Assembly: GCF_021026095.1 (NCBI RefSeq)
Contig: NZ_JAJNCU010000002.1
Coordinates: 1 to 64,000, forward strand
Length of the DNA stretch: 64,000 bases
Reading direction: 5' to 3'
From: Salinicoccus halitifaciens
GTDB taxonomy: Bacteria; Bacillota; Bacilli; Staphylococcales; Salinicoccaceae
Shown here: in pieces, positions 36,967 to 54,449 of the stretch
Layout: every line of letters starts with the position of its first letter
How positions within the stretch are numbered: the first letter of the stretch is position 1
Translations under genes and position numbers: made by a program
The notes under the pieces: model-generated
What the model was told of the DNA's origin: nothing
Seen by the model: only the letters and a program-made list of their open reading frames with translations
Database searches by the model: none

Positions 36967-37006
36967 CTATAAAGAAAAATCAGAGCATGTGAAAGGATGA
37001 GGATAT

Positions 37007-38173: not shown

Positions 38174-38234
38174 TGCCCTGTCTTTAATGGCATGGGCATG
38201 GCCATCGGATAAATTCAATCGAGCTGGAGGGGAA

Positions 38235-38339: not shown

Positions 38340-39844
38340 TGCTTGATGTAACGGGAGGTTTATTTTGGACGATTATCATTATGCTGGTGGGTTACTTTGG
38401 TCTGGTGGTCTGGATCGGCCAGAGAGGGAAGCGCCACAGCAGTTCGATGGCCGGTTTCGCGACGGCCCGGGGAAAAGTGAACCCTGTGATCGTCGGTGCA
38501 AGCTTTGCCGCTTCCTACGCAAGCGCGAACTTGTTCATCGGCGTGCCGGGTCTTGCCTATCAATACGGTACATCGGTACTCTGGTATACACTGGGCTGCT
38601 TTGGTGTGTCATGGCTTGGACTGCTTTTATTCGCGAAGACTTTCTGGAGGTACAGCAAAAAGTTCGGCGGTGTCTCCACCTTGCCTGAATGGCTTGGAAG
38701 GAGATATAACAGCAAGGCGCTGCAGGTGCTCGTCGCTGTTTTAATCCTGTTCAACGTATACTATATCGTCGGTCAGAATGTGGGCCTTGCGACCATCTTC
38801 GAATCCGTCCTCGGTATTCCATACTTCTGGGGGATCATCATCGGCGTGGTCATCACAATACTTTACATAGGGCTCGGCGGAGCCTTCGCACAGCTTGTTA
38901 CGGACGGTGTGCAGGGGATTTTGATGTCGGTCACTTCCATCCTCATCCTCCTGTCACTGTTTTGGACGATTGGCGGGGGCTTGAATGTATTCGGGGAGCT
39001 GTCACGAAAACTCGGGGAAATCGACCCCAATCTGACGAGCGCACTCTCCACAGGCGGACCTTATGACAGCCCGATGGCAATCATGGCCGTCCAGTTCCTT
39101 TTATTCAGCTTTGTTTTGATGCCGCATCTGCTGAATAAAGTGCTGTCGCTTGAAAGTGAGGAGCAGCTCGCACCATTCACATTGTCAGCCGGGGTGATTC
39201 TATTCCTCATCTCAACATTGATGGTGCTCGGCGGTCTGGCGGCCCGGGTGGTCGCGCCGTCTTTGGCGAGTGCAGACTCTGCGATTCCGGTATATGTGCT
39301 TGAATCGTTCCCGACGATCATCGCGGCAATCATCGTCGTGGGACTCATCTCGGCAATCCTCTCGAGTACGGACAGCCTCTACCTTGGCTTGACGACCAGC
39401 ATTGGAAACGACTTCTACAAAGTGCTGGCCCCGATACTGTCGAAGAAACCGATAGCCGAGGATGTTTTGGATAGAAACGCTGTGAGAGTCGCAAAAATCT
39501 CTCTTGTACTTGCGGGTCTGGCAACATTGTATTTTTCTCTGAACAGGCCTGAATCACTGTCTTTCTTAATACAATTCAGCTTTGCCGCAATCATCTGCGG
39601 AATCATTGCACCTGTTACATTAGGGTACTTCTGGAAAAAATCGAACGGCCCCGGTGCCATAGCTGCCCTGATCACCGGCACTGTACTGTACGTATTCTTT
39701 ACGAATCAGGATATTATCGGGAATCTCTATCTGGCGATGTTCTTCGCTTCCGCTGCCGCGTTTGCAGTGATGGTGGTGACTTCCCTGGCGACCCAAAGAA
39801 CAACGGCCGTCCAGCAGGAATCGCTGACCATTTCCGATAAGTAA
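38336..39844 (+). CDS. Sodium:solute symporter (SSS family)
   Basis: 502 residues, about 13 transmembrane helices. GASFAASYASANLFIGVPGLAYQYG and GGVSTLPEWLGRRYNSKAL are SSS family blocks; AILSSTDSLYLGLTTSIGNDFYK contains the conserved Na2-site Ser region. It should import a small carboxylate or similar solute with sodium, which suits a halophile. Coupled to the small subunit by ATGA overlap. Substrate inferred only from the thiolase and CoA ligase genes around it (acetoacetate or another organic acid). Confidence 0.88.
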   Translation: MMLDVTGGLFWTIIIMLVGYFGLVVWIGQRGKRHSSSMAGFATARGKVNPVIVGASFAASYASANLFIGVPGLAYQYGTSVLWYTLGCFGVSWLGLLLFAKTFWRYSKKFGGVSTLPEWLGRRYNSKALQVLVAVLILFNVYYIVGQNVGLATIFESVLGIPYFWGIIIGVVITILYIGLGGAFAQLVTDGVQGILMSVTSILILLSLFWTIGGGLNVFGELSRKLGEIDPNLTSALSTGGPYDSPMAIMAVQFLLFSFVLMPHLLNKVLSLESEEQLAPFTLSAGVILFLISTLMVLGGLAARVVAPSLASADSAIPVYVLESFPTIIAAIIVVGLISAILSSTDSLYLGLTTSIGNDFYKVLAPILSKKPIAEDVLDRNAVRVAKISLVLAGLATLYFSLNRPESLSFLIQFSFAAIICGIIAPVTLGYFWKKSNGPGAIAALITGTVLYVFFTNQDIIGNLYLAMFFASAAAFAVMVVTSLATQRTTAVQQESLTISDK

Positions 39845-39896
39845 AAAGGAACTTTGATTCAACAGGTGTGATTTAAGTAATGAGGAGGAAGAAGCA

Positions 39897-41864
39897 ATGA
39901 TGGAACAACAGTCGAAAGTGATGGATGATCATATATTATGGCGGCCTTCCGAACAACAGGTGGCTGAATCGAACATAAAAAAATTCTCGCAGCAGACCGG
40001 GATCCCGTTTGAACCCTACGAGCATATGCACAGATGGTCGGTGGCAGAACCGGGTGCATTTTGGTCGGCGGTGTGGGAGTTCTCAGGAATCATCGGAGAG
40101 AAAGGTGAGACCGTTTATCTTCCACCGGAAGATGGAGGCATGCTGGGTGCAAAGTGGTTTCCCGAAGCGGAAATCAATTTAGCCGAAAATCTTCTGCGGG
40201 GCGACGGTTCACGTGAAGCGGTCTATGAGGCAGATGAGCGTGGGGTGCAGCGGAAGGTTGATATGGGTGAATTGCGCATCATGGTGGCAAAGGCCCAGGA
40301 AGGCTTGAGGCAGCTCGGCGTCCGGGCAGGCGACCGGGTTGCAGGCATTGTAAAAAATGATCTGCAGTCGCTGGTTGCACTGCTTGCCACATCTTCACTC
40401 GGGGCCGTGTGGAGTTCATGCTCACCGGATTTCGGCGCCAAAGGGGTGCTCGACCGGATCGGCCAGGTCCAGCCCAAAATACTCATTGCTTCCCCGGAAT
40501 ATCATTATAATGGAAAGTTTTTTGACATCCGTGACAATATATCGGCAGTCAGTGCGGAGCTGGAAAGTTTGTCTGCGGTGGTGTGTCTGTCGGATACACC
40601 GGGACTGGTGCTGGAGACTGAGGCGGAACTGCTGACATGGAACGAACTGTTGGAAAATGACGCGGAAACGCCGGCATTTACACGCGTCCCATTCGATCAT
40701 CCTCTTTATATTTTATATACATCCGGGACGACCGGGCTGCCAAAAAGCATCGTCCATTCTGTCGGAGGAGTGCTGCTCCAGCATGTGAAGGAGCATCAGC
40801 TTCATTGCGATGTAAAGGAGGGGGATGTCCTCTCATGGTATACGAGCACATCCTGGATGATGTATCCGTGGCTCGTATCCGGCCTTGCCAGCGGGGCGTC
40901 CATCTTGCTCTATGACGGCTCACCGGTCCGGAAGGATAACCTTGGTATCCTTTGGGAAGTTGCAGAAGAAGTCGGCGTCACCCATTTCGGTACAAGCCCC
41001 AAATATCTTGCGACACTGGAGAAGTGTGGATATGACGTGGGAGGAAATCATGATCTGCAGGCCTTGAAGTCACTGATGACAACGGGGGCACCGCTCATCG
41101 CCGAACAGTATACATGGATTTATGAAACGGTGAAGGAAGATCTTTTCCTGGCATCCATTTCCGGAGGAACGGAAATCATCGGCTGCTTTTTCATGGGCAC
41201 ACCCGCACATCCCGTCAGGCGCGGGGAAATCACATGCAAGGCACTGGGCATGGCGGTGGATATTTTGGATCACCGGGGTGCTTCGGTGGTTGGCAGAAAA
41301 GGCGAACTGGTCTGTACAGAGCCCTTTCCGAGCATGCCGCTCACATTCTGGGGTGAAGAGGGAGATGAACGTTATTTCAACGCATATTTCAAGGCACATG
41401 AAGGCATCTGGACACACGGCGATCTGGTAGAAGAGACGCCGGCTGGCACATTCATCATCCATGGCCGTACGGATACGGTGCTCAACCCGGGCGGTGTCCG
41501 GATCGGGACGGCGGAAATTTACCGTGTAGTGGAACAGATTCCTGAAATCACAGATTCACTGGTGTTTGGTTTTCCTATGGACAACGATGAAGAGATTGCT
41601 TTGTGCATTGTGACCGAGGAGGGCGGTGCGGAGGCGAAACTCGCCGAGGAAATCCGCCAGGATGTGAGAAGGAAGGCCTCTCCGCGCCATGTGCCGCGGC
41701 GTATTTATACAGTGAAGGAAGTACCGTATACAAACAATGGTAAAAAGGTTGAAGGTGCCGTCCGTTCGATTGTCCGGGGACAGGATGTTAAGAATAAAGA
41801 GTCTTTGAAAAACCCGGAGTGCCTTGAGGAGTATATCTCACTGGCTGAAAGTGATTATCTATAA
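39897..41864 (+). CDS. Acetoacetyl-CoA synthetase-like acyl-CoA ligase
   Basis: 655 residues, ANL superfamily. N-terminal cap with LWRPSEQQVAESNIKKF, P-loop LYTSGTTGLPKSIVHS, TSTSWMMYPW, GGTEIIGCF, GVRIGTAEIYR and the C-terminal Lys in PYTNNGKKVEGAVR. Length and the ESN..F opening match acetoacetate-CoA ligases (AACS). It activates a short 3-oxo acid with ATP and CoA for the thiolase. RBS GAGGAGGAAG. End of the SAM-riboswitch operon, followed by a terminator. Confidence 0.88.
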   Translation: MMEQQSKVMDDHILWRPSEQQVAESNIKKFSQQTGIPFEPYEHMHRWSVAEPGAFWSAVWEFSGIIGEKGETVYLPPEDGGMLGAKWFPEAEINLAENLLRGDGSREAVYEADERGVQRKVDMGELRIMVAKAQEGLRQLGVRAGDRVAGIVKNDLQSLVALLATSSLGAVWSSCSPDFGAKGVLDRIGQVQPKILIASPEYHYNGKFFDIRDNISAVSAELESLSAVVCLSDTPGLVLETEAELLTWNELLENDAETPAFTRVPFDHPLYILYTSGTTGLPKSIVHSVGGVLLQHVKEHQLHCDVKEGDVLSWYTSTSWMMYPWLVSGLASGASILLYDGSPVRKDNLGILWEVAEEVGVTHFGTSPKYLATLEKCGYDVGGNHDLQALKSLMTTGAPLIAEQYTWIYETVKEDLFLASISGGTEIIGCFFMGTPAHPVRRGEITCKALGMAVDILDHRGASVVGRKGELVCTEPFPSMPLTFWGEEGDERYFNAYFKAHEGIWTHGDLVEETPAGTFIIHGRTDTVLNPGGVRIGTAEIYRVVEQIPEITDSLVFGFPMDNDEEIALCIVTEEGGAEAKLAEEIRQDVRRKASPRHVPRRIYTVKEVPYTNNGKKVEGAVRSIVRGQDVKNKESLKNPECLEEYISLAESDYL

Positions 41865-42028: not shown

Positions 42029-42118
42029 TAGTTAAAAACGTGTCGTAATAGAATTGTGAATCAGCTCGCGTATAATAAGGTCAAAAATAGAAATTATTAT
42101 AACAGGGAGTAGATTTTT

Positions 42119-43507
42119 ATCAATTCAACTGATCATATAGAAGAGGCGGGACAGGGTGATGATTACTCACTCGAAAGGGTCCCCAGAAGTAAGAGGAACA
42201 TGGGTTGGCTGAGTATCACGAACATAACATTCGGAATTGCCACGGCAATTTTCTACTTCCAGCTTGGAAGTGTCATGGCATTGCAGTTTGGCGCGATCAA
42301 TGCGCTCATTTCATCTGCCTATGCCATTGTTGTAGCAGGGATTCTTAGTACTTTTATATCTTACTTATCTGCTAAAAGCGGTTTGAATGTCAATCTGCTT
42401 TCAAGAGGTGGCGGATTCGGTTATATCGGTGCGTCACTCACCTCTCTCATTTATGCATCAAACTTTATTATGTACTGTGCTTTTGAAGGGCTGATATTGG
42501 TCTATGCCCTTCATGCATTTTTCCCTCATATCCCGATATGGGTGTATATTTTAATTTTTGGAACAGTGGTGATACCGCTGAACTGGTTCGGCATCAAACA
42601 GCTGGACAAGCTTCAGAAATGGTCGCTTCCACTGTTCTTCGTCTTCCTGGGTGCGGCGATCATCATGGCATTCATCGTGACGCCGGCCTACACTGGAAAT
42701 GTCTTCACTTATATGCCTGAAGGTGTACAGGTGGGCGGCACGGCCTTATTGATGTGCATGGCGATGCACCACGGCATCATGGGACTGACTGCTCTGATAC
42801 CCTCGGACTATGCGCGGTTCCTGAAGCCGAAAGATATCAAGGCAACGCTTGCGATCGGCTTCATCCCGCAGATTTTCTGTTACGGATTCATGGGGATCCT
42901 CGGCATCTGGTTCGGCGTATTGCTTGCAGAACCGAACCCGGGCGTCTACATCGTTTACCTGCTGGGTGCCGGCGGTGCGTTATTCACACTGATCACCCAG
43001 CTCCGGATCAACGTGACGAATATTTACAGCAGCTCGCTGTCGCTCTCGAACTTCTTTGAGAACGCTGTGAAATTCTCACCGGGACGCCGTTTCTGGGTCG
43101 TCGTGAGCGGCGTCGCTGCAATCATATTGATGCTTGGCGGCATCGTGGATCACCTCGATGCAGCACTGACATTCCAGGGCGTCGTCCTGCTGTCATGGGC
43201 ATCAATCCTTGTGACGGATGCAGTATTCGTTAAAAAGCTGTTGAAGATCGGCCCCGGCTATTATGAGGCCAGACAGTCCAACCTGTTTAAGTGGAATCCG
43301 GTGGGCGTCACGGCACTGATTGTTTCCAGCGTGCTTGGAACAGTGGCAGCCTTCGGATTCATGGGACCTTTCCTTGAGAGCACCGCAGCATTCTTTGCGG
43401 CCCTGCTTGCGGCAATCCTTACAATCGTCATCGCACTGGTGACTAAAGGTGCCTACTATATCAGGCAGGAAGCCCACGATATACCTGCGGAGGACCATAT
43501 TGCATAA
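42119..43507 (+). CDS. NCS1 family (cytosine/purine-type) permease, non-standard start
   Basis: About 462 residues, twelve transmembrane helices. The conserved NCS1 opening DYSLERVPRSKRN lies upstream of the first ATG (42200), so translation must begin earlier. The frame is closed by TAG at 42110, and between it and the ATG only ATT, ATC or ATA could serve. ATC at 42119 is 9 bases after AGGGAG and is my choice. Later blocks: TFGIATAIFYFQLGSVMALQ and SRGGGFGYIGASLTSLIYA. NCS1 proteins import nucleobases, allantoin or hydantoins. Position beside the Mo-hydroxylase genes suggests an N-heterocycle. If only ATG is used, the product starts at 42200 without the conserved motif. Confidence 0.8.
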   Translation: MNSTDHIEEAGQGDDYSLERVPRSKRNMGWLSITNITFGIATAIFYFQLGSVMALQFGAINALISSAYAIVVAGILSTFISYLSAKSGLNVNLLSRGGGFGYIGASLTSLIYASNFIMYCAFEGLILVYALHAFFPHIPIWVYILIFGTVVIPLNWFGIKQLDKLQKWSLPLFFVFLGAAIIMAFIVTPAYTGNVFTYMPEGVQVGGTALLMCMAMHHGIMGLTALIPSDYARFLKPKDIKATLAIGFIPQIFCYGFMGILGIWFGVLLAEPNPGVYIVYLLGAGGALFTLITQLRINVTNIYSSSLSLSNFFENAVKFSPGRRFWVVVSGVAAIILMLGGIVDHLDAALTFQGVVLLSWASILVTDAVFVKKLLKIGPGYYEARQSNLFKWNPVGVTALIVSSVLGTVAAFGFMGPFLESTAAFFAALLAAILTIVIALVTKGAYYIRQEAHDIPAEDHIA

Positions 43508-43682
43508 AATAATATAGTTTCTTTTATCCATCCTTCCAAACCCGGAAGGATTTAATCTGATATCGATATGAAGATGACCATTATATGCTTCTGCTTTCTT
43601 ATTACGATACTTGATCTATTTATTCATATCCATGATTTGAAATCAGAGTCTGTAATCAATTATTCATAAAGATAAAAGAAAC

Positions 43683-43757
43683 CGGCCCGTATGCAAAGCA
43701 TACATATTACAGGGCCGATGTAAGGACCGGACATTCATCTGAATGTCCGGTTTTTTT
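43683..43757 (+). terminator. Structured 3' region and strong terminator after the permease gene
   Basis: CGGCCC (43683-43688) pairs with GGGCCG (43712-43717), enclosing GTATGC-aaa-GCATAC and an unpaired ATATTACA. Eight bases later ACCGGACATTC-atct-GAATGTCCGGT with seven T forms a perfect 11-bp terminator. The gap 43508-43953 has no gene; an isolated CCTTCC / GGAAGG hairpin lies near 43530. A leader-RNA role for the first structure is possible but matches no riboswitch class that I recognise. Confidence 0.75.
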
Positions 43758-43894
43758 ATTTTTCAACATCAGAAACTGGTACCTAAGAAAAAATCATTCT
43801 GGTACTTTATAATTTTTTGAAAATTGTGCATAGTCTAAGAGGAATCATACAAACATATGTATACATCCAATCAAGCGATGTTACAGTCAAGTTT

Positions 43895-43908
43895 TGAAAG
43901 CGTTTTAT
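43895..43908. promoter_or_regulatory. Weak candidate cre site
   Basis: TGAAAGCGTTTTAT has the cre core with two mismatches at the end, just ahead of the coxG-like gene. Confidence 0.3.
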
Positions 43909-43953
43909 TTAATTGTGGTTGATGATGAGGGGATTTTTCAACAGGAAGGGGAC

Positions 43954-44412
43954 ATGGGAGTGGAAATCAAGCATAAGTACACATTCAAAAATTTATCGAA
44001 GCAGGAAGTCTGGGATACCATCCAGGATCCTGAAGCGCTTCAGGCTGCACTGCCTAATTGCGAAGTCTTTGAAGAAGTGGGGGATGAAAAATATAAAACC
44101 GTCATGAAAGTCAACATGGGCGCCATCAAAGGTGAGTTCACAGCAGATGTCCAGCAGATTGACAAATCTGAGCCGGATTCTTACAGGCTTCTTGTGAAGG
44201 CCAGAGGGAAACCTGGAGAAATCGAAGCTAATGCGAAGATGGTTCTGGAGGAAATAGCAGAAGGTACGGAATTGTCATGTGAAGCGGATGTTTCCACGAC
44301 CGGACTGATGGCGACCGTTGGACAACGTATGGTTGGCGGCGTGGCAAAAGTGGTGCTCGGGCAATTCTTCAAGGACATCGAAAAGCAGGCCAAGCAGGCA
44401 GCGGGTCAATAA
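43954..44412 (+). CDS. CoxG-like protein (SRPBCC carbon-monoxide-dehydrogenase subunit G family)
   Basis: 152 residues. YTFKNLSKQEVWDTIQDPEALQAALPNCEVFE is the CoxG family opening, with IKGEFTADVQQIDKSEPDSY and a C-terminal helix. CoxG proteins are lipid- or membrane-binding and accompany Mo-hydroxylases. Start at ATG 43954 with AGGAAGGGG; an upstream TTG gives a longer frame without family similarity. Leads the Mo-hydroxylase operon. Confidence 0.86.
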   Translation: MGVEIKHKYTFKNLSKQEVWDTIQDPEALQAALPNCEVFEEVGDEKYKTVMKVNMGAIKGEFTADVQQIDKSEPDSYRLLVKARGKPGEIEANAKMVLEEIAEGTELSCEADVSTTGLMATVGQRMVGGVAKVVLGQFFKDIEKQAKQAAGQ

Positions 44413-44452
44413 TGCGTTAATGCTCAGTTCATAAAATTTTAGGGGTGTTTCT

Positions 44453-44956
44453 ATGAATAATGAATTAGTTAATGTGTCGATTACGCTTAATGGAGAAAAA
44501 GTGAGTGCAGAAGTGGAACCCAGGATGTTGCTCATTCATTTCATCCGGGACATCATGAACGCCACCGGTTCCCACATCGGCTGTGATACAAGTCAATGCG
44601 GCAATTGTACTATACTGGTCGACGGCCGGTCGACGAAATCCTGCACAGTTCTTGCAGTCCATGCTGATGAGACGGAGGTCATTACAGTGGAGGGGATCGG
44701 CACGACGGAAAACCTTCATCCGATACAGAAGGCATTCTGGGAGGAGCATGGTCTTCAATGCGGCTATTGTACACCGGGAGCCATGATGGCGAGTATCGAT
44801 TTCCTCTCACAGAATCCTGATCCGACAGATGATGAAATCAGGGAAGGCCTCGACGGGATCATATGTCGATGCACCGGCTACGAGTTCATCGTCAATGCCG
44901 TCAGAAGTGCTGCGAAAATGATGAATGATGACAGCGCCGTCAAAGGGGAGGTTTGA
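44453..44956 (+). CDS. Mo-hydroxylase [2Fe-2S] subunit (CoxS/XdhE type)
   Basis: 167 residues. Plant-type [2Fe-2S] site IGCDTSQCGNCTILVDG, then the second cluster LQCGYCTPGAMM and CRCTGYEFIVNAV. It passes electrons from the molybdenum centre to the FAD subunit. Good RBS, 4 bases before the large subunit. Confidence 0.95.
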   Translation: MNNELVNVSITLNGEKVSAEVEPRMLLIHFIRDIMNATGSHIGCDTSQCGNCTILVDGRSTKSCTVLAVHADETEVITVEGIGTTENLHPIQKAFWEEHGLQCGYCTPGAMMASIDFLSQNPDPTDDEIREGLDGIICRCTGYEFIVNAVRSAAKMMNDDSAVKGEV

Positions 44957-44959
44957 TTT

Positions 44960-47308
44960 ATGGAAAAGATGGTCGGTCAAAGAATTAAAAGGAAAGAAGA
45001 TCCCAAATTGATCACCGGCAATGGAATGTATTTGGATGATATGAAAATACCAGGACTGCTGCATGCAAGCATCGTGCGCAGCCCACATCCGCATGCCAAT
45101 ATAGTCAGCATCGATAAAGAGAAAGCGCTGAAGCATCCGGGCGTCGTTGCAGTATACACAGGGAAAGATCTTGAAGGGAAGATAAACCCTGTCCCGACCT
45201 CATGGAAGGTGCCAGGAATGGACCTCATCGAGACGAAACAGTATCCGCTGGCAATTAATACTGCCCGGTATGTGGGGGATGGGGTAGCGATGGTCGTCGC
45301 CGACAGCAAATATACAGCCAGGGACGCCGCGGAGCTGATTGAGGTGGATTATGAAGTGCTGCCCTCCATTGCCAATCAGAAAGAGGCGCGTAAAGACGGG
45401 GCACCGCAAATTTATGATGAAGTGCCGGGTAATGTGGCATTCAAATATGTGGCCGGTGAAGTCACTGATGAGGATTTGGAGAATGCCGAAGTGGTTATGA
45501 AAGGTTCTTACAACACTCAACGGGTCGCGCCAAGTCCGATGGAAACGAGAAATTCTCTCGCACAGTATAATCCGGGAAGCGGGGATCTGAAGCTGTATGT
45601 CGGTTCGCAGAACCCGCATATCCACAGAATGGTGTTGTCCGAAGTCCTTAATTTTCCGGAGCATAAGCTGCATGTAAAAGTTGCAGACATGGGTGGCGGA
45701 TTCGGCGGTAAAATCGGCGTATATCCTGATGAAGCGCTCGTTTCCTACGCATCAATGGATCTGAAGCGTCCCGTAAAGTGGGTGGAAACAAGAAATGAAC
45801 ATTTCCAATCCGCAAACGCCGGTCGTGATATGATGGTTGATTTGGAACTGGCGGGCACGAAAGATGGAAAAATCACAGCTTTACGTGCAGTAAACCATGC
45901 AAATATAGGTGCATATCTTGCGACTTTCGGTCCGGGCAACCCGACGATTGATTTTGGCCTGATGCTCTCAGGCGCCTACAAAATCGAGAAAGCTCAATGT
46001 ACTACGTACGGCATGTATACGAATACGATGTCTGTCGACTCCTACAGAGGGGCAGGAAAACCGGAAGTGACATTCATGCTGGAGCGGGCAGTCGATGATT
46101 TTGCGAGGAAGATCAATATGGATCCCATCGAAGTCAGACGCATCAATTTCGCCTCAAAGGAAGAATTTCCGTTCACCAATGCACAGGGTCTGATTTATGA
46201 TAGCGGGGATTATGTGAAAGCATTGGATCGGGCCGTTGAAAAGTCGGATTACCATGCATTGAGGCAGAAACAGGAGGAGCTGCGGGAAGAAGGCAGATAT
46301 ATAGGCATCGGCATCTCTTCATATGTGGAATTATCCGGATTTGGGCCTTCGGCAGTGGCCGGAGCAATAGGTTTCCAGGGAGGCATATGGGAAAATTCAA
46401 CGGTGCGTGTCCACCCGGGAGGCACAGTGACAGTTTATACAGGTACGTCCCCTCACGGACAGGGACATGATACGACGTTCAGTCAAATTGTGAAAGATAA
46501 ACTCGGTATTCCTTATGAAGATATCAACTTCGTTTTTAATGATACACGCGCAGTTTCCATGGGCTGGGGCACCTATGGCTCGAGATCCCTTGCGGTAGGT
46601 GGCAATGCGGTAGGGCTCGCCACCGATAAAGTCGTGGAGAAGGGCCGCCGGATTGCAGCACACCTGCTTGAGGCGGAAGTGGAAGATATCGAATTCGAAG
46701 AAGGCGTCTATTCAGTCAGGGACGATAACAGCAGAAGGAAGACATTCCAGGAGATTGCGAAAGCGGCAAACTTTGCCTGGAGTCTGCCGGAAGGCATGGA
46801 ACCAGGGCTCGAAGAGCAGACTTTCTTTGATCCATCAAATTTCACTTACCCGTTCGGTACGCATATCGCCGTCGTGGAAGTGGATATTGAAACAGGTGAA
46901 ATTGAAATACTGCGATACATCGCTGTGGATGATTCGGGTAAGATCGTCAATCCAACAGTGGCGGAGGGCCAAATACTCGGAGGCATCGCCCAAGGGGTCG
47001 GTCAGGCTCTCTGGGAAGGGGTCCAATACGATGAAAAAGGACAGTTGCAATCGGGTTCATTTATGGATTATGCAATGCCTAAGGCGAATTTTTTTCCTAA
47101 AATCGAAATGGAATTCACAGAAACGCTCTCTCCTGTTAACCAGTTGGGATCGAAAGGGGTTGCGGAATCAGGGACGACAGGCTCGATTGCAGCCGCTGCG
47201 AACGCTGTGATGGATGCATTGGCACCGCTTGGCGTTAAACACATTGAACTACCTTTGAAGCCTGAGAAAGTATGGCGGGCAATTCAGAAAGGGGGAGCGG
47301 AATCATGA
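44960..47308 (+). CDS. Mo-hydroxylase large (molybdopterin-binding) subunit, form-II CoxL type
   Basis: 782 residues. GQRIKRKEDPKLITGNGMYLDD opening, VADMGGGFGGKIG, the active-site loop SYRGAGK at 361-367 and the catalytic Glu in KGVAESGTTGSIAAA. True CO dehydrogenases have AYRCSFR; SYRGAG is the form II type, found in hydroxylases of aldehydes and N-heterocycles. It probably adds oxygen from water to a heterocyclic carbon. The natural substrate is not known. Overlaps the FAD subunit gene by 4 bases. Confidence 0.92.
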   Translation: MEKMVGQRIKRKEDPKLITGNGMYLDDMKIPGLLHASIVRSPHPHANIVSIDKEKALKHPGVVAVYTGKDLEGKINPVPTSWKVPGMDLIETKQYPLAINTARYVGDGVAMVVADSKYTARDAAELIEVDYEVLPSIANQKEARKDGAPQIYDEVPGNVAFKYVAGEVTDEDLENAEVVMKGSYNTQRVAPSPMETRNSLAQYNPGSGDLKLYVGSQNPHIHRMVLSEVLNFPEHKLHVKVADMGGGFGGKIGVYPDEALVSYASMDLKRPVKWVETRNEHFQSANAGRDMMVDLELAGTKDGKITALRAVNHANIGAYLATFGPGNPTIDFGLMLSGAYKIEKAQCTTYGMYTNTMSVDSYRGAGKPEVTFMLERAVDDFARKINMDPIEVRRINFASKEEFPFTNAQGLIYDSGDYVKALDRAVEKSDYHALRQKQEELREEGRYIGIGISSYVELSGFGPSAVAGAIGFQGGIWENSTVRVHPGGTVTVYTGTSPHGQGHDTTFSQIVKDKLGIPYEDINFVFNDTRAVSMGWGTYGSRSLAVGGNAVGLATDKVVEKGRRIAAHLLEAEVEDIEFEEGVYSVRDDNSRRKTFQEIAKAANFAWSLPEGMEPGLEEQTFFDPSNFTYPFGTHIAVVEVDIETGEIEILRYIAVDDSGKIVNPTVAEGQILGGIAQGVGQALWEGVQYDEKGQLQSGSFMDYAMPKANFFPKIEMEFTETLSPVNQLGSKGVAESGTTGSIAAAANAVMDALAPLGVKHIELPLKPEKVWRAIQKGGAES

Positions 47309-48162
47309 TTCCTTCTCAGTTTAAATATCTCAGGGCACAGTCGGTCGAAGAAGCGATAACAATGTTGCAGGAAACGCACGGTGAAGGGAAGATACTGGCA
47401 GGTGGACACAGTCTGGTACCATTGCTTAAGTTCCGGATCACCACACCAGGTACACTCGTCGACATTACACGCATCCCGGGGCTTAAAGATGTGCGCATCG
47501 ATGGTGATCGTTTGCTTGTCGGGGCCTTGAAAACCCACTATGAGATATCAAAAGATGAAACGATTATTGATAATATTCCGGCATTGGCAAAAACAGCAAG
47601 TGAGACGGGAGACCTCCAGGTCCGTAATTATGGGACGATTGGTGGAAACATTGTCCATGGTGACCCGGTCGCCGATTATCCGGCAATCGCACTGGCCCTG
47701 GATGCAGAATTGAAAGTGGAAGGCGAAGACGGGACAGAGATGCTGCCGGTGGATGGTTTCGCGTTGGGACCGCTTATTACGATGATGCCGGAAAACGCCA
47801 TTGTAACCGAAGTGAGCTTTGAGATTCCACCGGCCCACGCTGAGCAGACATATTTGAAGTATACCCATCCGGCGACAGGCTACCCCCTCGTCGGCGTGGC
47901 GGCAATCGCAGGGACAGGCGATGACGGGACGATCGATTACATCAGGGTCGGTGTGACGGGAGTGAGTGATGTATCATACCGCGCCCGGCCAGTCGAGGAA
48001 TTCCTGATGGGCAGGGAACCGAGTGAAGAACTCATCAAGGAAGCGGCGGAACTCGCCGTGGAAGATGCAGAGATGGGATCGGATCTGTTTGCTTCTCCTG
48101 AATACCGGGAGCACATCACCAAAATATACGTAAAACGTGCATTATATGAAGTGTTGAAATGA
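47305..48162 (+). CDS. Mo-hydroxylase FAD subunit (CoxM type)
   Basis: 285 residues. FAD contacts ILAGGHSLVPLLKFR and the YGTIGGNIVHGDPVADYPA loop are present, with a C-terminal CO_deh_flav_C domain. It receives electrons from the FeS subunit. Start at ATG 47305 overlapping the large-subunit stop, with GGGGGAG; a longer TTG version lacks support. Confidence 0.93.
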   Translation: MIPSQFKYLRAQSVEEAITMLQETHGEGKILAGGHSLVPLLKFRITTPGTLVDITRIPGLKDVRIDGDRLLVGALKTHYEISKDETIIDNIPALAKTASETGDLQVRNYGTIGGNIVHGDPVADYPAIALALDAELKVEGEDGTEMLPVDGFALGPLITMMPENAIVTEVSFEIPPAHAEQTYLKYTHPATGYPLVGVAAIAGTGDDGTIDYIRVGVTGVSDVSYRARPVEEFLMGREPSEELIKEAAELAVEDAEMGSDLFASPEYREHITKIYVKRALYEVLK

Positions 48163-48251
48163 TGATGGAGAGTCTGTGAGGGGTTCAACAGGAAGCTCCT
48201 CATAGCTGTTGATCCATGACCTCAATACGAAAGATACAGGGGTGACTTTAT

Positions 48252-48572
48252 TTGAAGGAGAACTTGAAGGTATACGAGGCAATCACTGAAGCGAAACAAT
48301 CCGGGAGGAGGGCGGCAGTGGCCACCGTCATCAAAGTGATTGGTTCAAGTTACCGCCGGGAAGGTGCAAAAATGTTCATAGATGAAAAAGAAGAGCGCGT
48401 CGGCCTGATTTCCGGTGGCTGTCTGGAAGCAGATGTAGCAGAAGAAGCTAAAGCGGTTATCAGCTCCGGAAAACCATTCACTAAATTCTATGATTTGGAT
48501 GAAGATTTTGTATGGGGGCTCGGACTTGGATGCCCGGGTAAAGTGATGGTTTACATCGAGAGGGTAAGTTAA
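48252..48572 (+). CDS. XdhC/CoxI N-terminal-domain protein
   Basis: 106 residues that make up one XdhC_CoxI domain: AAVATVIKVIGSSYRREGAKMFID, LISGGCLEADV and GLGLGCPGKVMVYIE. XdhC proteins bind the molybdenum cofactor and promote its sulfuration before insertion into the hydroxylase. TTG start with AGGGGTGA. Here the domain is separate from the Rossmann part, which is coded by the next gene. Confidence 0.85.
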   Translation: MKENLKVYEAITEAKQSGRRAAVATVIKVIGSSYRREGAKMFIDEKEERVGLISGGCLEADVAEEAKAVISSGKPFTKFYDLDEDFVWGLGLGCPGKVMVYIERVS

Positions 48573-48597
48573 ATTCATGAAGATGGGAGGAGAAAGG

Positions 48598-49434
48598 ATG
48601 CATAAGGATAAAGCATACGACTCCTGGCTGGAAGCAGTTAGAAATAATAGATCTTGTGGATTGGCAACGGTACTCCACGGGGAAGATGCTGAAAGTTTTG
48701 AACCAGCCCGTGTGTTTCTTGATGAGGATGGCGGATTGGTGAGCACAATCGATGATCAGACACTGGCAGGTGCGGTTCACACAAGGCTTAAGGAGAAACT
48801 TGTTGAAGACAATGCTAAAGGTGAGATTGTGAAAATTGCTTTAGAAGACGGCGGAGTGGTGAGTATATTTGTGGATATTCATCATCCACCTGTGCAGGTG
48901 ATGATTTTCGGAGCGGGACATGACGCGGTGCCTGTCGCAAAATATAGTATTTCGCTCGGTTTCGATACAACGGTGGTGGATGCACGGGAAACCTTCAATA
49001 ATGAAAAGAGGTTCCCCAGTTCAGAGCGCATCATCGCTCAACCGAAGTTTTATGGAGAACATATCAATATTACCAAGAATACATTCGTAGTCATCATGAA
49101 TCACCATATGGAGAAAGACAAGGAGAGCCTGGTCTTCGCATTACAATCGGAAGCCCCTTACGTGGGTGTTCTGGGGCCGCGGTCAAGGCGGGAAAAGATG
49201 ATGGACCAGCTTCATGAAGAAGGGGTGTCTTTTTCGGAATTCGAACTGTCCAGGATGCATAATCCAATTGGTCTGGATATCGGTGCAGAGTCATCGGAAG
49301 AAATCGCAATCAGCATATTATCTGAAATCATCGCACTGTCCAAAGGCCACCGTGGTGGATTCCTGCATGATAAAAACAGCATTCACAAATATCCGACCCG
49401 CTATGAAATGCCAGCCGGAAGCGTCAATGGATGA
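48598..49434 (+). CDS. XdhC family Mo-cofactor maturation protein
   Basis: 278 residues. A divergent N-terminal domain (NRSCGLATVLHGEDAE), then the XdhC_C Rossmann domain: VQVMIFGAGHDAVPVAKYS, VVDARE, VIMNHHMEKDKESL, YVGVLGPRSRREKM and NPIGLDIGAESSEEIAISI. Acts with the preceding protein on the molybdenum cofactor. Start at ATG 48598 behind GGGAGGAG. Confidence 0.88.
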   Translation: MHKDKAYDSWLEAVRNNRSCGLATVLHGEDAESFEPARVFLDEDGGLVSTIDDQTLAGAVHTRLKEKLVEDNAKGEIVKIALEDGGVVSIFVDIHHPPVQVMIFGAGHDAVPVAKYSISLGFDTTVVDARETFNNEKRFPSSERIIAQPKFYGEHINITKNTFVVIMNHHMEKDKESLVFALQSEAPYVGVLGPRSRREKMMDQLHEEGVSFSEFELSRMHNPIGLDIGAESSEEIAISILSEIIALSKGHRGGFLHDKNSIHKYPTRYEMPAGSVNG

Positions 49435-50068
49435 AAAAAAGGTTTGCGCCGTAGTGCTCGCAGCAGGGACTTCAAGCAGGATGGGGTCCTTGAAGCAGCT
49501 GCTGCCTCTTGATGGCCAGCAACAACTCGGATCTGTGATAAAGAAAGTGCTCCACAATGGTTTTACGGATGTCTATACCGTCCTTGGCCACAAGGCGGAG
49601 CAGATAAAGGCGGTACTCGATATTCCGGACGAAAATCATCATTGGCTGATCAATGAAAATTACCGAGATGGCCAGAGCACTTCCGTCAAAACAGCACTGC
49701 AACATATCATGGAGGAATACAATCATGTCATGATATTCCTTGGAGACATGCCATTCATCAAAGATGAGACGGTTGAAACGGTGAAAAATTCAGGGCGGGC
49801 GCACTGCATCGGAACCGATCCGTTCATCGTTCGCCCTGTATATCGAGGTATGGCAGGACATCCGGTATTCATCGGGAATATCAATCAGGATATTGTGGCA
49901 CAGCTGGACGGGGATTCGGGTTTCAAATCGGTGAAAAAAGTGTTTGCCTTCAGCGAACTGATTGAAACAGACGATGCCGGGGTGAATTTTGATGTCGACA
50001 CTGAAGAAGATTACCAAGTTGCGTTGAAGAGGGCAGGAGAACATCCGATATTAAAAAAGTTAAAGTGA
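49427..50068 (+). CDS. Molybdenum cofactor cytidylyltransferase (MocA-like)
   Basis: 213 residues. AVVLAAGTSSRMGSLKQLLPL is the nucleotidyltransferase signature of the MocA branch, followed by IFLGDMPFI and GMAGHPVFIG. It would attach CMP to molybdopterin, giving the MCD cofactor used by hydroxylases of this family. ATG overlaps the xdhC stop by 8 bases; longer frames upstream are read from inside xdhC and are not real. Confidence 0.9.
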   Translation: MDEKKVCAVVLAAGTSSRMGSLKQLLPLDGQQQLGSVIKKVLHNGFTDVYTVLGHKAEQIKAVLDIPDENHHWLINENYRDGQSTSVKTALQHIMEEYNHVMIFLGDMPFIKDETVETVKNSGRAHCIGTDPFIVRPVYRGMAGHPVFIGNINQDIVAQLDGDSGFKSVKKVFAFSELIETDDAGVNFDVDTEEDYQVALKRAGEHPILKKLK

Positions 50069-50144
50069 TGATGATGAAATTATCGGAATAAATATAATAT
50101 TAGGTTATATTAGTGTTATGGAATTAATTTTTATAGAACTGATT

Positions 50145-50158
50145 TGTAAACGCTTTAA
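50145..50158. promoter_or_regulatory. Candidate CcpA cre site
   Basis: TGTAAACGCTTTAA matches the cre consensus except for one base (CA is AA), 34 bases before the AHS1/PxpB gene. Confidence 0.5.
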
Positions 50159-50191
50159 TTGGAGTAATTTTTAAAGGAGAGGTGGGGCAAC

Positions 50192-51061
50192 ATGACCCGT
50201 TACGAGTATGGTGGGGATGAGTTCATTTTCGTCGAACTGTCAGAGGAAATGACATTACAGTCAAATTTCAAAGCCAAGGCAATCACGGAAGAATTAAGGG
50301 GGCGTGAGCTGCCGGGAATTGTAGATATCTGTCCGGGCAACGCTTCATATATGATCCGGTTTGTACCGGAGGAAATCCATCCGGATGAACTCATCAAAAT
50401 ATTAAAGAAAATGGAAGAGGAAGTGTCATGGAAAGAGATGACGATTCAATCAAGAATTGTCGATGTTCCGATATTCTTTGACGATCCATGGACTCATGAA
50501 GTTCTGATGAGGTTCAGGGGTAATCATCAGGACCCTGAAAGTACGGATTTGGACTATGCGGCGAGGATCAACGGTTATGATTCTAAAGAAGAATTAATCA
50601 AAGCGATCACGGATGCGCCTTATCTTGTATCCATGATCGGATTCGTACCTGGTCTGCCGTGGTGCTATCAAATGGTACCACAGGACAGACAGATTGAAGT
50701 GCCGAAATATGTCCGGCCGCGTACCTTCACCCCCGAGCGTGCTTTCGGTTTCGGCGGCGCTTTCGCCGTAATCTATCCGGTCGAAGGGGCGGGAGGATAT
50801 CAGCTGTTCGGCACTGCTGCTGCACCAATTTTTGAAAATGAACAGAAGAATAAAGATTTTAAAGATGATATCACATTCCCAAGGCAGGGCGATATCTTCA
50901 GATACAGGAGCATCGGCCGGGAAGAGTATGATGAAATCAGGGAAAAGGTCGAAGCGGGTCAATTTGAATACTTGATAAAGGATTTTTCATATAAACCTCA
51001 GGATGTTCTGGAAGATCCGGACGCTTTTTCAGAAGATGTGATTAGGAGGTTGTACAAATGA
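50192..51061 (+). CDS. pxpB: PxpB/KipI-like protein, allophanate-hydrolase subunit 1 domain
   Basis: 289 residues, longer than usual PxpB (about 240). LPGIVDICPGNASYMIRF and IGFVPGLPWCYQM..VPKYVRPRTFTPERAFGFGGAFAVIYP follow the AHS1 pattern, but the core is divergent, closer to the corresponding domain of urea carboxylases than to KipI. In PxpABC it helps phosphorylate 5-oxoproline; in urea carboxylase it forms half of the carboxyltransferase. RBS GGAGAGGTGG. Confidence 0.82.
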   Translation: MTRYEYGGDEFIFVELSEEMTLQSNFKAKAITEELRGRELPGIVDICPGNASYMIRFVPEEIHPDELIKILKKMEEEVSWKEMTIQSRIVDVPIFFDDPWTHEVLMRFRGNHQDPESTDLDYAARINGYDSKEELIKAITDAPYLVSMIGFVPGLPWCYQMVPQDRQIEVPKYVRPRTFTPERAFGFGGAFAVIYPVEGAGGYQLFGTAAAPIFENEQKNKDFKDDITFPRQGDIFRYRSIGREEYDEIREKVEAGQFEYLIKDFSYKPQDVLEDPDAFSEDVIRRLYK

Positions 51062-52029
51062 TCAAAGTGATTCAACCGGGACTGCAGACAACCGTTCAGG
51101 ATTTGGGGAGAATCGGCCATTACGAAGTGGGGATGCCGCCTTCCGGCGCGATGGACACTTACGCACTTAAAGTATCCAATCTGCTAGTTGGCAATGATGA
51201 AGACGCAGCAGGACTTGAAATAACATATATGGGACCTAAATTGCAATTTGAAGAAGATGCTGTCATCGCCATCACCGGCGGTGAAATCCCGCCTAAGATT
51301 AATGACGAAGCAGTCGGTATGTGGGAGACGATTGCGGTTAAAGCAGGGGATATTTTATCTTTTGATTTCGTCAAAAGCGGTGCGCGTGCTTATTTCGCCG
51401 TGCAAGGCGGCATTGATGTACCTGAAATCATGGGGTCCCGTTCAACTTATACATTGATAGGTATCGGTGGTTTCGAAGGCCGGGCGCTGAAGGAAGGCGA
51501 CGAGTTGAAAATTGCCGAGGATAAAAATGTAAACGTGCAGGTAGGAAGGAAAATCGATGAAGCACTGATTCCAAAATATTCGAAGGCCCATGATATACGA
51601 GTGGTGATGGGACTGTGCAGCTACCGTCTTACAGAAGAAAGCAAAGAGAAGTTCCTCAGCACTGAGTGGCAGGTCACCCCGGAAGCCAACCGTGTCGGGT
51701 ACCGTTTCAAAGGAGCAAAAATGGATTTTGTCGAAAGGGAGCAACCTTTCGGTGCGGGGAGTGATCCTTCAAACGTGACGGATCAGGGCTATCCGATCGG
51801 ATCGATACAAATTCCAGGTGGAATTGAGCCGATAGCGCTCCTGAATGATGCTGTTACAGGCGGTGGCTATGTCACTGTCGCAACCATCATCAGCACCGAC
51901 CTCGACAGAATGGCTCAGGTCAAGTCCGGTGAAAAGGTGAAGTTTGTCGCCGTTGACATCGAGGAGTCATTGAATGCCAGAAAAGAGATGAAGGATAAAC
52001 TTGAGCAGATCAGAAAACAATTATCATAG
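51058..52029 (+). CDS. pxpC: PxpC/KipA-like protein, allophanate-hydrolase subunit 2 domain
   Basis: 323 residues. LQTTVQDLGRIGHYEVGMPPSGAMD is the AHS2 opening, with ARAYFAVQGGIDVPEIMGSRSTY and SDPSNVTDQGYPIGSIQIPGG. It pairs with the AHS1 protein; ATG overlaps that gene's stop. Carboxyltransferase half in urea carboxylase, or kinase half in 5-oxoprolinase. Confidence 0.88.
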   Translation: MIKVIQPGLQTTVQDLGRIGHYEVGMPPSGAMDTYALKVSNLLVGNDEDAAGLEITYMGPKLQFEEDAVIAITGGEIPPKINDEAVGMWETIAVKAGDILSFDFVKSGARAYFAVQGGIDVPEIMGSRSTYTLIGIGGFEGRALKEGDELKIAEDKNVNVQVGRKIDEALIPKYSKAHDIRVVMGLCSYRLTEESKEKFLSTEWQVTPEANRVGYRFKGAKMDFVEREQPFGAGSDPSNVTDQGYPIGSIQIPGGIEPIALLNDAVTGGGYVTVATIISTDLDRMAQVKSGEKVKFVAVDIEESLNARKEMKDKLEQIRKQLS

Positions 52030-52049
52030 TAAACAGGGAGGAAAAAATA

Positions 52050-52298
52050 ATGAGTAACAGTGTAAAAGTACTATCGCCGATTCCAGGAGTTTTTTATCGC
52101 AGACCATCCCCCGATGAAGATGTATATGTCAACGAGGGGGACGAAGTTAAAGAAGGAGATATCATCGGACTTGTTGAAGTCATGAAAAGTTTTCATGAGT
52201 TGAAAGCGGAAGCGGGGGGAATCATCGCCGAGTTCAAAGTTGAGGAAGAAGGTATGCTTGAAGCAGGTCAGGAAATCGCAGTTATCAATCAAAAATAG
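52050..52298 (+). CDS. Biotin carboxyl carrier protein (stand-alone)
   Basis: 82 residues, biotinyl domain only. VEVMKSFHEL carries the biotinylated Lys46; the consensus AMKM is VMKS here. SPIPGVFYRRPSPDEDVYVNEGD is the typical front half. It lacks the long N-terminal linker of fatty-acid AccB. Serves the carboxylase at 52326. Confidence 0.88.
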   Translation: MSNSVKVLSPIPGVFYRRPSPDEDVYVNEGDEVKEGDIIGLVEVMKSFHELKAEAGGIIAEFKVEEEGMLEAGQEIAVINQK

Positions 52299-52325
52299 AC
52301 GCAAAAAGTTCATGAGGTGGGCATA

Positions 52326-53666
52326 TTGGCATTATTCAATAAAATATTAATCGCAAACCGTGGAGAAATCGCGTTGAGGATCATCAGAACCTGTCACCGC
52401 ATGGGCATCGATACCGTGGCAGTCTATTCGGAAGCGGACAAAGATGCACCGTTTGTGAAAGAAGCGAAGGAAGCTGTCTGTGTCGGAGAGGCGCCGGCTA
52501 AAAAGAGTTATTTGAATATCGATAAAATTATCACTGCAGCAAAAGAACTGAATGTGGAGGCGGTGCATCCAGGCTACGGCTTCTTATCCGAAAGTTCAGG
52601 TTTTGTCGAACTTTGTGAGGACGCCGGAATCACCTTCATCGGTCCCGACAGGGATGTGATGGAAGTGATGGGCAGTAAACTGAAATCCCGTCAGATGATG
52701 AAAGAAGCGGGCATACCGGTCGTCCCGGGGTCGGATAAAAAGCTGGATACCATTGATGAGGCTCTGGAAGTCGCCGAAGGACTCGAATATCCATTGATGC
52801 TGAAGGCGAGTGCGGGCGGTGGCGGCATCGGCATGAAGAAAGTCCACAATAAGGAGGAGCTCGCAGCAGCATTCAAGACAACGAAGAAGCAGGCTGAAAA
52901 CTTCTTTTCCGATGACAGATTATTTTTGGAACAGTGGATCTATGAACCGCGGCACATCGAAGTGCAGATTGCAGCGGATTCAAAGGGCAATGTAATTCAC
53001 CTGTTTGAACGGGAATGCTCGGTCCAGAGACGTCATCAAAAAGTGGTTGAAGAATCCCCTTCGCCGTTTTTGAATGATGAAGTGAGGAAGCAACTTCTTG
53101 AAGCGGCAATCATCGGCGTCGAACATCTTGGTTACAGGAATCTCGGCACGATGGAATTCATCTTTGATGCTTCGGGAAATTTTTATTTCCTAGAAATGAA
53201 TACAAGGTTACAGGTAGAGCACCCGGTCACCGAAGCAATCACCGGACTCGATCTGGTGGAGTGGCAAATCAGAATTGCAGCAGGTGAAACGCTGCCGATG
53301 GATCAGGAGGAAATCAGCAGCTCTGGTCATGCAATCGAAGCGCGGCTATACGCAGAAGATCCTAAGACTTATTTCCCGTCGCCGGGGAAAATCACTAAAT
53401 TGAGTCTGTCAGAAGATCTCGCAAGATATGATTTTGGAGTGGTTGAAGGTTCACAGGTCACCCCATTTTACGATGCAATGATAGGAAAAATTATCGTTCA
53501 TGGCGAAGACCGGGAGGATGCAATCGGTAAAATGACGGCAGCGCTGGATGGTATGAAAGTTGAAGGGATCACGACGAACCTGACACTGCTCAGGGACATC
53601 ATGACTGCTGAACAATTCACATCCGGCCAATATACGACGAATTTCCTCGATGAGTTCAATATTTAA
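52326..53666 (+). CDS. Biotin carboxylase
   Basis: 446 residues, full length. NKILIANRGEIALRIIRTC, the glycine-rich ATP lid KASAGGGGIGMKKV, ERECSVQRRHQKVVEESPSP, MEFIFDASGNFYFLEMNTRLQVEHPVTE are all intact. It carboxylates biotin on the carrier using ATP and bicarbonate. TTG start at 52326, 5 bases after GAGGTGG; a GTG inside that site is unlikely. Not the fatty-acid AccC by context: its neighbours are AHS1, AHS2, carrier and PxpA. Confidence 0.92.
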   Translation: MALFNKILIANRGEIALRIIRTCHRMGIDTVAVYSEADKDAPFVKEAKEAVCVGEAPAKKSYLNIDKIITAAKELNVEAVHPGYGFLSESSGFVELCEDAGITFIGPDRDVMEVMGSKLKSRQMMKEAGIPVVPGSDKKLDTIDEALEVAEGLEYPLMLKASAGGGGIGMKKVHNKEELAAAFKTTKKQAENFFSDDRLFLEQWIYEPRHIEVQIAADSKGNVIHLFERECSVQRRHQKVVEESPSPFLNDEVRKQLLEAAIIGVEHLGYRNLGTMEFIFDASGNFYFLEMNTRLQVEHPVTEAITGLDLVEWQIRIAAGETLPMDQEEISSSGHAIEARLYAEDPKTYFPSPGKITKLSLSEDLARYDFGVVEGSQVTPFYDAMIGKIIVHGEDREDAIGKMTAALDGMKVEGITTNLTLLRDIMTAEQFTSGQYTTNFLDEFNI

Positions 53667-53687
53667 CTTTGTAAGGTGGTGGATCGA

Positions 53688-54449
53688 ATGAAGATAGATC
53701 TTAATTGTGATATGGGAGAAAGTTTCGGTTTACATGTGCAGGGCAACGATGAAGAAATGATGAAATACATCACATCTGCGAACATCGCGTGCGGATTCCA
53801 TAGTGGGGACCCGCATGTCATGCGGGAGACTGTAGCACTCGCCAAAAAATATGGTGTGGGCATCGGTGCACATCCCGGCCTGCCTGACCTCGTCGGTTTC
53901 GGCCGCAGGCGGATGGACTGCACTGCATCGGAGATGAAGGACTTCGTCACTTATCAGATGGGCGCCTTAAGGGAATTCTCAAGGGCGAATGGTGTCAGCA
54001 TACAGCACTGCAAACCGCACGGTGCGATGTATATGCAGGCGATGGAAGACCATGAAGTGGCAAGGGCGATTCTTGAAGCGATAGAAGAGATCGATAAGAA
54101 TACAATCGTCTTTGCCGTAAATAACTCTGCTATGCTGGATGAAGCCGTGAAGATGGGGATCCCTGTCGCTAAAGAAGGCTATGCCGACCGGGAACATACG
54201 GCTGACGGCAGTCTGGTGCTCACCCGTAAAAGCAGGAACCTTGATGATTTCGATAAGATGGCAGAACGTGTCGTGCGCTTGGTGAAGGAGAAGAAGGTCA
54301 TCACTCACGATGGTGAGGATGCATCGTTGGAAGTGGAGACGATCTGCATCCACGGTGATAATCCGGATGCACCGAAACTTGCAAAATCCGTTGTTTCCGC
54401 ACTGGAGAATGCCGGTGTGGAAATTGTTCCGGTGAAGCAGCTGATCTGA
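53688..54449 (+). CDS. pxpA: LamB/YcsF family protein, 5-oxoprolinase subunit A
   Basis: 253 residues. DLNCDMGESFG, ANIACGFHSGDPHVM, GAHPGLPDLVGFGRR, CKPHGAMYMQA and EGYADREHTADGSLV are the PxpA signature. In PxpABC it hydrolyses the activated lactam. Start at ATG 53688 behind AAGGTGG. Last gene of the carboxylase set, followed by a terminator. Confidence 0.92.
   Translation: MKIDLNCDMGESFGLHVQGNDEEMMKYITSANIACGFHSGDPHVMRETVALAKKYGVGIGAHPGLPDLVGFGRRRMDCTASEMKDFVTYQMGALREFSRANGVSIQHCKPHGAMYMQAMEDHEVARAILEAIEEIDKNTIVFAVNNSAMLDEAVKMGIPVAKEGYADREHTADGSLVLTRKSRNLDDFDKMAERVVRLVKEKKVITHDGEDASLEVETICIHGDNPDAPKLAKSVVSALENAGVEIVPVKQLI

Follow-up and report, generated by a model that had tools for sequence, protein, structure and literature searches.

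PxpABC 5-oxoprolinase consists of PxpA and two proteins of the carboxyltransferase families CT_A_B and CT_C_D, which in some operons are accompanied by AccB and AccC. The same carboxyltransferase families are found in urea carboxylase (urea amidolyase), together with biotin carboxylase (BC) and a biotin carboxyl carrier protein (BCCP), and K1605 of the Kluyveromyces lactis enzyme is described as probably acting as general base in carboxyl transfer (PMC5770610). Paired UCT genes are called unstudied in a 2011 survey of biotin-dependent carboxylases (PMC3199775), and within the searchable literature no explanation was found for BC genes lying with PxpBC. Lactams are also opened in an ATP-dependent manner by CapAB caprolactamase, which acts with bicarbonate, and by ATP-dependent hydantoinases; CapAB is described as not similar to PxpABC (PMC8453981). 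Form II 'CO dehydrogenases' are molybdenum (Mo) hydroxylases with coxSLM-type three subunits, CoxG and a YRGAG loop, and whether they act on carbon monoxide (CO) or another substrate was called open in 2020 (PMC7248562). Here, we describe a gene island of Salinicoccus halitifaciens in which relatives of these systems lie side by side. The window, i.e. the whole stretch of 64,000 nucleotides that was analysed and to which all coordinates refer, is part of contig C4 (NZ_JAJNCU010000002.1) of a 2.68-Mb genome.

Every gene named in the original prediction is present on the forward strand of the window: an NCS1-type permease, a Mo block (CoxG, the three hydroxylase subunits, two XdhC-type proteins and a MocA-like cytidylyltransferase) and a carboxylase block of AHS1, AHS2, BCCP, BC and PxpA. 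The latter block contains all components of a biotin-dependent carboxylase, namely BC, BCCP with its MK motif and the carboxyltransferase subunits. We tentatively propose that the island may represent an undescribed route of Bacillota and Actinomycetota, in which a clade of form-II-like Mo enzymes would convert 1-pyrroline into 2-pyrrolidone and a split biotin-dependent lactam N-carboxylase would act with PxpA to release 4-aminobutyrate (GABA). The general form of this scheme, in which the island encodes a single catabolic route, has about an even chance of being correct, judging from the genes. Neither a biotin-dependent lactam carboxylase nor such a gene set was found in the literature, a weak negative result as most subscription papers lay outside the search.

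The steps would follow one another as set out here. The permease would import a small cyclic nitrogen compound, and the CoxG, XdhC and MocA factors would mature the three-subunit Mo hydroxylase, which would oxidise the C=N carbon of a cyclic imine and so form a lactam, most likely 2-pyrrolidone from 1-pyrroline. 1-Pyrroline, the ring form of 4-aminobutanal, would be derived from putrescine or pyrrolidine. BC would then charge the biotin of BCCP with CO2 at the expense of ATP, AHS1 and AHS2 would pass the carboxyl group on to the nitrogen of the lactam with AHS1 lysine 172 (K172) as the base, and PxpA would hydrolyse the activated ring, the carbamate losing CO2 to give GABA. Finally, gabT and gabD located elsewhere in the genome would take GABA to succinate. 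The argument runs backwards from the product: with GABA as the probable product, 2-pyrrolidone becomes the probable lactam, which points to a cyclic imine as the Mo substrate. Aldehyde oxidases convert cyclic imines to lactams. Both 1-pyrroline as the Mo substrate and N-carboxylation as the mechanism are reasoned guesses, each of which may as easily fail as hold.

The two blocks are very likely functionally linked. A scan of named genomes via AHS1 yielded 84 confirmed loci, of which 80 were analysed; the loci were selected by AHS1, their contents were taken from our own gene calls, and because many loci stop at contig ends, all neighbour counts are lower bounds. AHS2 was called in 80 loci, AHS1 and PxpA in 73 each, BCCP in 66 and BC in 64, and the Mo-related genes in 46 (large subunit), 39 (Fe-S subunit), 37 (FAD subunit) and 35 (CoxG). 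All 46 loci with a large subunit also carry a BC and/or BCCP gene. Hence the co-occurrence of both blocks in unrelated genomes, proposed beforehand as a check, was borne out in Bacillota and Actinomycetota (46/80 loci), and the recurrent neighbourhoods fit the predicted single lactam pathway of uptake, Mo-dependent oxidation, biotin-dependent activation and ring opening. The gene order takes two forms, with the large subunit upstream of AHS2 in 20 loci and downstream in 26. Pairwise distances of the large subunit and AHS1 correlate with r = 0.89 over 43 of 47 loci, from which L134, loci with no called AHS1 and short large subunits were omitted. In a class-wide sample, AHS1-like matches (1e-20) were obtained in 45 of 398 genomes and reached at least 57% identity in 26, the host included. 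In these 26 and one further genome (G011), a large subunit at least 55% identical was present in 20 of 27, lying within 20 kb of AHS1 in 17; in three genomes (G053, G073 and G340) the sole large subunit is unlinked and placed in a sister clade. A tree of large subunits separates 46 linked proteins (window included, the short L106 protein omitted) from 12 unlinked ones by two label changes, compared with a mean of 12 after shuffling, although close kinship makes such clustering easy. The unlinked proteins were chosen from 23 genomes with a large subunit at least 54% identical, none known to lie near AHS1.

Among named relatives the nearest is Lacicoccus alkaliphilus DSM 16010 (L056), whose AHS1 is 95% identical to that of the window and whose genes, permease through PxpA, are arranged in the same order. 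Within the host family, window-type AHS1 (E ≤ 1e-20) occurs in 2 of 33 genomes and a large subunit at least 88% identical in 3 of 33 (one being a contig fragment), a fourth having a 37% homologue; the island is therefore accessory. In several loci (L066, L075, L077, L083, L084, L101 and others), the single set of BC, BCCP and PxpA has a second AHS1-AHS2 pair next to it. The AHS1 of these pairs is about 38-45% identical to that of the window, and the pair is preceded by a sigma-54-type regulator whose nearest model is PrdR, below the cut-off in both proteins scored. Perhaps the two pairs represent two lactam specificities that share one biotin engine. Such a pair also lies beside an NCS1-type permease in L177, where a stretch of 14 kb contains no BC, BCCP or PxpA.

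The lactam is likely to be one that yields GABA. GABA transaminase (GABA-T) genes whose products share at least 50% identity with the L050 protein were found in 13 of the 80 loci; 11 further loci carry a class-III aminotransferase of a different kind, and these 11 of the 24 family members (<35% identical to the L050 protein) were excluded from the count. Scoring covered seven of the 13 loci, and all seven proteins exceed TIGR00700 (L057, L059, L081, L101, L105, L113 and L083, the latter as L045). Beside GABA-T, genes of the succinate semialdehyde dehydrogenase (SSADH) type lie above the cut-off of 646.35 bits in L081 (662) and L050 (699.8) and narrowly below it in L057 (643.9) and L059 (643.8). 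In Oceanobacillus chungangensis (L063), a transaminase above the cut-off (642 bits) is located 18 kb from AHS1, past the Mo genes, together with an aldehyde dehydrogenase 70% identical to one of the set. Among the 27 genomes, six from five families (f54, f31, f32, f22 twice and f12) have an above-cut-off transaminase within 5 kb of AHS1, compared with 0.096 expected from random placement (Poisson P 1e-9, uncorrected for kinship). An AHS1 tree of 74 rows (73 and the window, seven of the 80 loci having no called AHS1) pairs the window with L056 and places L057 as their sister, both groupings being starred. L057 combines Mo genes with GABA-T and an SSADH-type gene in one locus, and L059 and L063 fall within the 12-row group of the window, itself weakly supported; these three loci (L063 at 18 kb) are the members of the group with GABA-T. 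The host genome itself carries two gabT genes above the cut-off on contig C5, each with an SSADH-type gene, one above and one narrowly below the cut-off. An agmatinase-family gene above TIGR01230 adjoins the second of these, and agmatinase-family genes occur in 6 of the 80 loci, with all three that were scored passing TIGR01230. As a side observation, a 940-codon frame in L109 (4339-7161) has a class-III aminotransferase in its C-terminal half and was excluded from GABA-T; its start may be wrong, and for its N-terminal half no match to a Pfam family was obtained at 1e-8.

Several points weigh against the proposed route. GABA-T is present in 4 of 46 Mo-bearing loci (L057, L059, L105 and L113) versus 9 of 34 Mo-less ones, i.e. 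those with no Mo genes within the fetched flank, and in none of the six genomes where GABA-T lies within 5 kb of AHS1 is a large subunit found nearby. The GABA product is thus read mostly from the Mo-less block and is carried over to the Mo-bearing form because the lactam enzymes are closely related and a few loci have both. In the group of the window, 9 of 12 rows, the window included, have no GABA-T in the fetched flank. Moreover, genes forming 1-pyrroline are absent from the island, loci in the sister clade of the large subunit have no lactam genes, and GABA-T families can also use 5-aminovalerate. Five Mo-bearing Bacillus/Cytobacillus loci (L061, L062, L064, L067 and L074) form a single group in which a class-III aminotransferase of the other kind lies with an aldehyde dehydrogenase gene immediately upstream of the block. 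The aminotransferases of L061 and L064 match no GABA-T model, and the aldehyde dehydrogenase of L064 no SSADH model, at 1e-110; the relatives of this aminotransferase with solved structures comprise amine, putrescine and polyamine:pyruvate transaminases, with a 4-aminobutyrate transaminase ranking lower. This group may either reach the same product via other enzymes or act on a different lactam.

The same machinery could accordingly serve another lactam, e.g. 2-piperidone (formed from 1-piperideine, and so from cadaverine or lysine) opened to 5-aminovalerate, or several lactams. The Bacillus/Cytobacillus loci, the many loci with a second AHS1/AHS2 pair beside one BC/BCCP/PxpA set and the rarity of GABA-T near the Mo-bearing form speak for it; against it stand the GABA-T and SSADH-type genes of L057 and L059 and the fact that glutarate genes were not recognised among the neighbours, many of which have no identification. 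We consider this alternative unlikely. It is likewise improbable that the lactam enzyme gives GABA but that the Mo enzyme is an aldehyde oxidase of 4-aminobutanal or succinate semialdehyde, or acts on another ring. The best named models of the Mo subunits are glyceraldehyde dehydrogenase, all below the cut-off, Mo-less blocks occur next to GABA-T and SSADH-type genes, and for the most part GABA-T and the Mo genes lie in different loci. However, L057, L059 and the Oceanobacillus locus hold both a Mo enzyme and an SSADH-type gene, so the Mo enzyme is not a replacement for SSADH there.

The label 'form II' fits the Mo enzyme in part. The subunit set and CoxG agree with it, but the loop SYRGAGK differs by two changes from the form II motif AYRGAGR (PMC7248562). 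The variant GAGK is found in 39 of 47 linked large subunits (window included) and GAGR in eight, all from the Rubrobacter group or an unclassified actinobacterial bin, while the 12 unlinked sister proteins examined all have GAGR. As a mark of all linked Mo enzymes, GAGK thus fails for the Rubrobacter group. Within its own genome, the large subunit is the sole match at E ≤ 0.001, and among its relatives in the PDB are CO dehydrogenase, quinoline 2-oxidoreductase and 6-hydroxypseudooxynicotine dehydrogenase. Form I CO dehydrogenase is characterised by the cysteine motif AYxCSFR; it was rejected, as the large subunit of the window has SYRGAGKPE and scores 680 against the TIGR02416 cut-off of 991. 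The predicted aromatic N-heterocycle as the starting compound found no support, since the probable GABA product points to a cyclic imine and not to nicotinate, a purine or oxindole; the original prediction as a whole is partly supported.

At AHS1 position 172, AHS2 position 242 and the biotin motif, the putative lactam-opening enzyme follows urea carboxylase. AHS1 K172 corresponds in the alignment to K1605 of the K. lactis enzyme, and lysine is found at this position in all 93 AHS1-family proteins from the 80 loci and the window, as well as in all four long proteins assigned to urea carboxylase because of their length, their similarity to BC and an adjacent amidase gene. In contrast, arginine occupies it in all 27 aligned proteins (of 30 loci) from PxpB loci above the TIGR00370 cut-off and in two of two further PxpB-like proteins; five of the urea-carboxylase and PxpB labels outside the TIGR00370 set are based on protein length, gene neighbours or weak model scores. 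The biotin motif reads E[VI]MK in 66 of 67 carriers and GVMK in one; in the window, VEVMKS aligns with VEAMKM of Escherichia coli BCCP, and BC can be aligned to solved biotin carboxylases. The other two subunits were compared with 26 classical loci (22 AHS2 and 12 PxpA proteins), using one protein per AHS1 locus, from the first or second pair (76 and 71, window included). AHS2 position 242 is aspartate in 76/76, as in urea carboxylase, versus serine or threonine in 22/22 classical proteins, and position 133 is leucine in 74/76 versus arginine (19) or lysine (2) in the 22. PxpA position 120, beside KPHGAxY, is methionine in 69/71 versus asparagine in 12/12. The change of R183 to threonine in PxpA was not used, as the adjoining invariant R184 may be that arginine displaced by one position. 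The loss of charge at AHS2 position 133 would fit a lactam that lacks the carboxylate of 5-oxoproline. BioY-family genes adjoin the block in eight loci, seven of them of the Rubrobacter group (one scored).

Compared with PxpABC, the block of the window shares the three families and an expected ATP-driven lactam opening, but differs at AHS1 172, AHS2 133 and PxpA 120 and in its linkage to the Mo enzyme and, in some loci, to GABA-T. That it is an ordinary 5-oxoprolinase, PxpABC with AccBC, lying by chance beside an unrelated Mo enzyme is very improbable. In its favour, PxpA exceeds two subfamily cut-offs (328.8 vs 226 and 253.6 vs 213 bits), though not three equivalog PxpA models, and BCCP and BC may also occur in classical loci. 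Against it, AHS1 scores 76.2 and 73.3 bits versus 145.55 for PxpB (TIGR00370), AHS2 scores 251.9 versus 500 for PxpC (NF045499), and the Mo linkage is recurrent. Furthermore, the host has a classical PxpB-PxpC-BCCP-BC-PxpA locus on contig C7 (L208, 197001-213000), followed by genes of 404 and 255 amino acids; its PxpB (208 bits) is above the cut-off, and the other four genes were named by similarity. Hence a BC gene next to PxpBC is not a novel arrangement, and the block of the window represents a second, divergent system. BC and BCCP neighbours also failed as a mark of the lactam clade, since L188 and L199 (BCCP) and C7 (both) are classical. On these scores, residues and the separate C7 locus, a plain 5-oxoprolinase was rejected.

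It is similarly doubtful in the extreme that AHS1 and AHS2 phosphorylate the lactam while BC and BCCP serve something else: PxpBC is assumed in PMC13274462 to phosphorylate 5-oxoproline, but AHS1 K172, AHS2 D242 and the biotin motif follow urea carboxylase. Urea carboxylase itself shares BC, BCCP, the carboxyltransferase families and the base lysine with the window, where they are encoded by four separate genes and adjoined by PxpA instead of allophanate hydrolase. The single-chain model TIGR02712 (cut-off 1303.85) is reached by none of them (BC 580, AHS2 283, AHS1 138 and BCCP 23), and a urea carboxylase/allophanate route was rejected, as the host genome has no allophanate hydrolase above the cut-off and the family scan found no amidase family in the block. 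CapAB and the hydantoinases share ATP-dependent lactam opening with the proposed enzyme, but no family common to the block was seen in family scans.

Table 1. Genes of the island, with window coordinates and the family or model matches on which the names are based.
Feature	Position	Strand	Matches and remarks
NCS1-type permease	42119..43507	+	PF02133 37.3 bits, weak, above cut-off; first ATG 42200
CoxG-like protein	43894..44412	+	PF06240 78 bits
Mo-hydroxylase [2Fe-2S] subunit	44453..44956	+	PF01799, PF00111
Mo-hydroxylase large subunit, form-II-like	44960..47308	+	PF02738, PF20256, PF01315; motif SYRGAGKPE
Mo-hydroxylase FAD subunit	47272..48162	+	PF00941, PF03450
XdhC/CoxI N-domain maturation protein	48252..48572	+	PF02625
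XdhC Rossmann-domain maturation protein	48577..49434	+	PF13478
MocA-like molybdenum cofactor cytidylyltransferase	about 49427..50068 (start chosen)	+	PF12804; TIGR03310 135.5 bits, below cut-off 186.45
AHS1, carboxyltransferase subunit C/D (CT_C_D, PxpB-like), K172	50192..51061	+	PF02682
AHS2, carboxyltransferase subunit A/B (CT_A_B, PxpC-like)	51058..52029	+	PF02626; TIGR00724 311 bits, above cut-off 230
BCCP, motif VEVMKS	52050..52298	+	PF00364; PRK07051 above cut-off
BC	52317..53666	+	PRK08591 621 bits, cut-off 597
PxpA / LamB-YcsF family ring-opening subunit	53676..54449	+	PF03746; PRK05406.1-3 329 bits, cut-off 226

The permease has clustered relatives in 9 of 81 loci (window counted) and no meaningful match among PDB sequences; two other clustered permeases were scored, of which that of L089 matches PF02133 and that of L119 has no match at 1e-10. 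Its frame runs 5' of the first ATG (42105-42200), with conservation at the protein level in L056, and this extension contains no ATG, GTG or TTG in either the window or L056. An ATC codon at 42119 lies 9 bases 3' of a conserved GGGAG, the alternative being a conserved ATT two codons earlier; ATC may thus be a rare non-ATG start. Terminator-like stems flank the permease gene on the + strand (41926 and 43722), and one on the - strand directly follows PxpA (54496-54463). No stem was detected in the 123 bases that separate MocA from AHS1, the boundary of the Mo and carboxylase blocks. Of the three predicted transcription units, the stems therefore agree with the limits around the permease and after PxpA but not with a division between the two blocks; with eight such sites observed versus a mean of 10.8 in shuffles, there is no excess. 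Upstream of the island (36802-41864), a S-adenosylmethionine (SAM) riboswitch is followed by acetyl-CoA acyltransferase, sodium/solute-symporter-like and acetoacetate-CoA ligase genes, for which it is an odd regulator.

The cluster makes both the form II substrate question and the association of BC with PxpBC testable in cultured strains, with substrate and product named. If the proposal is true, it would assign a substrate to one clade of the 'form II CO dehydrogenases' and give biotin a part in lactam opening, and a biotin-dependent lactam-opening enzyme could serve for lactam monomers.

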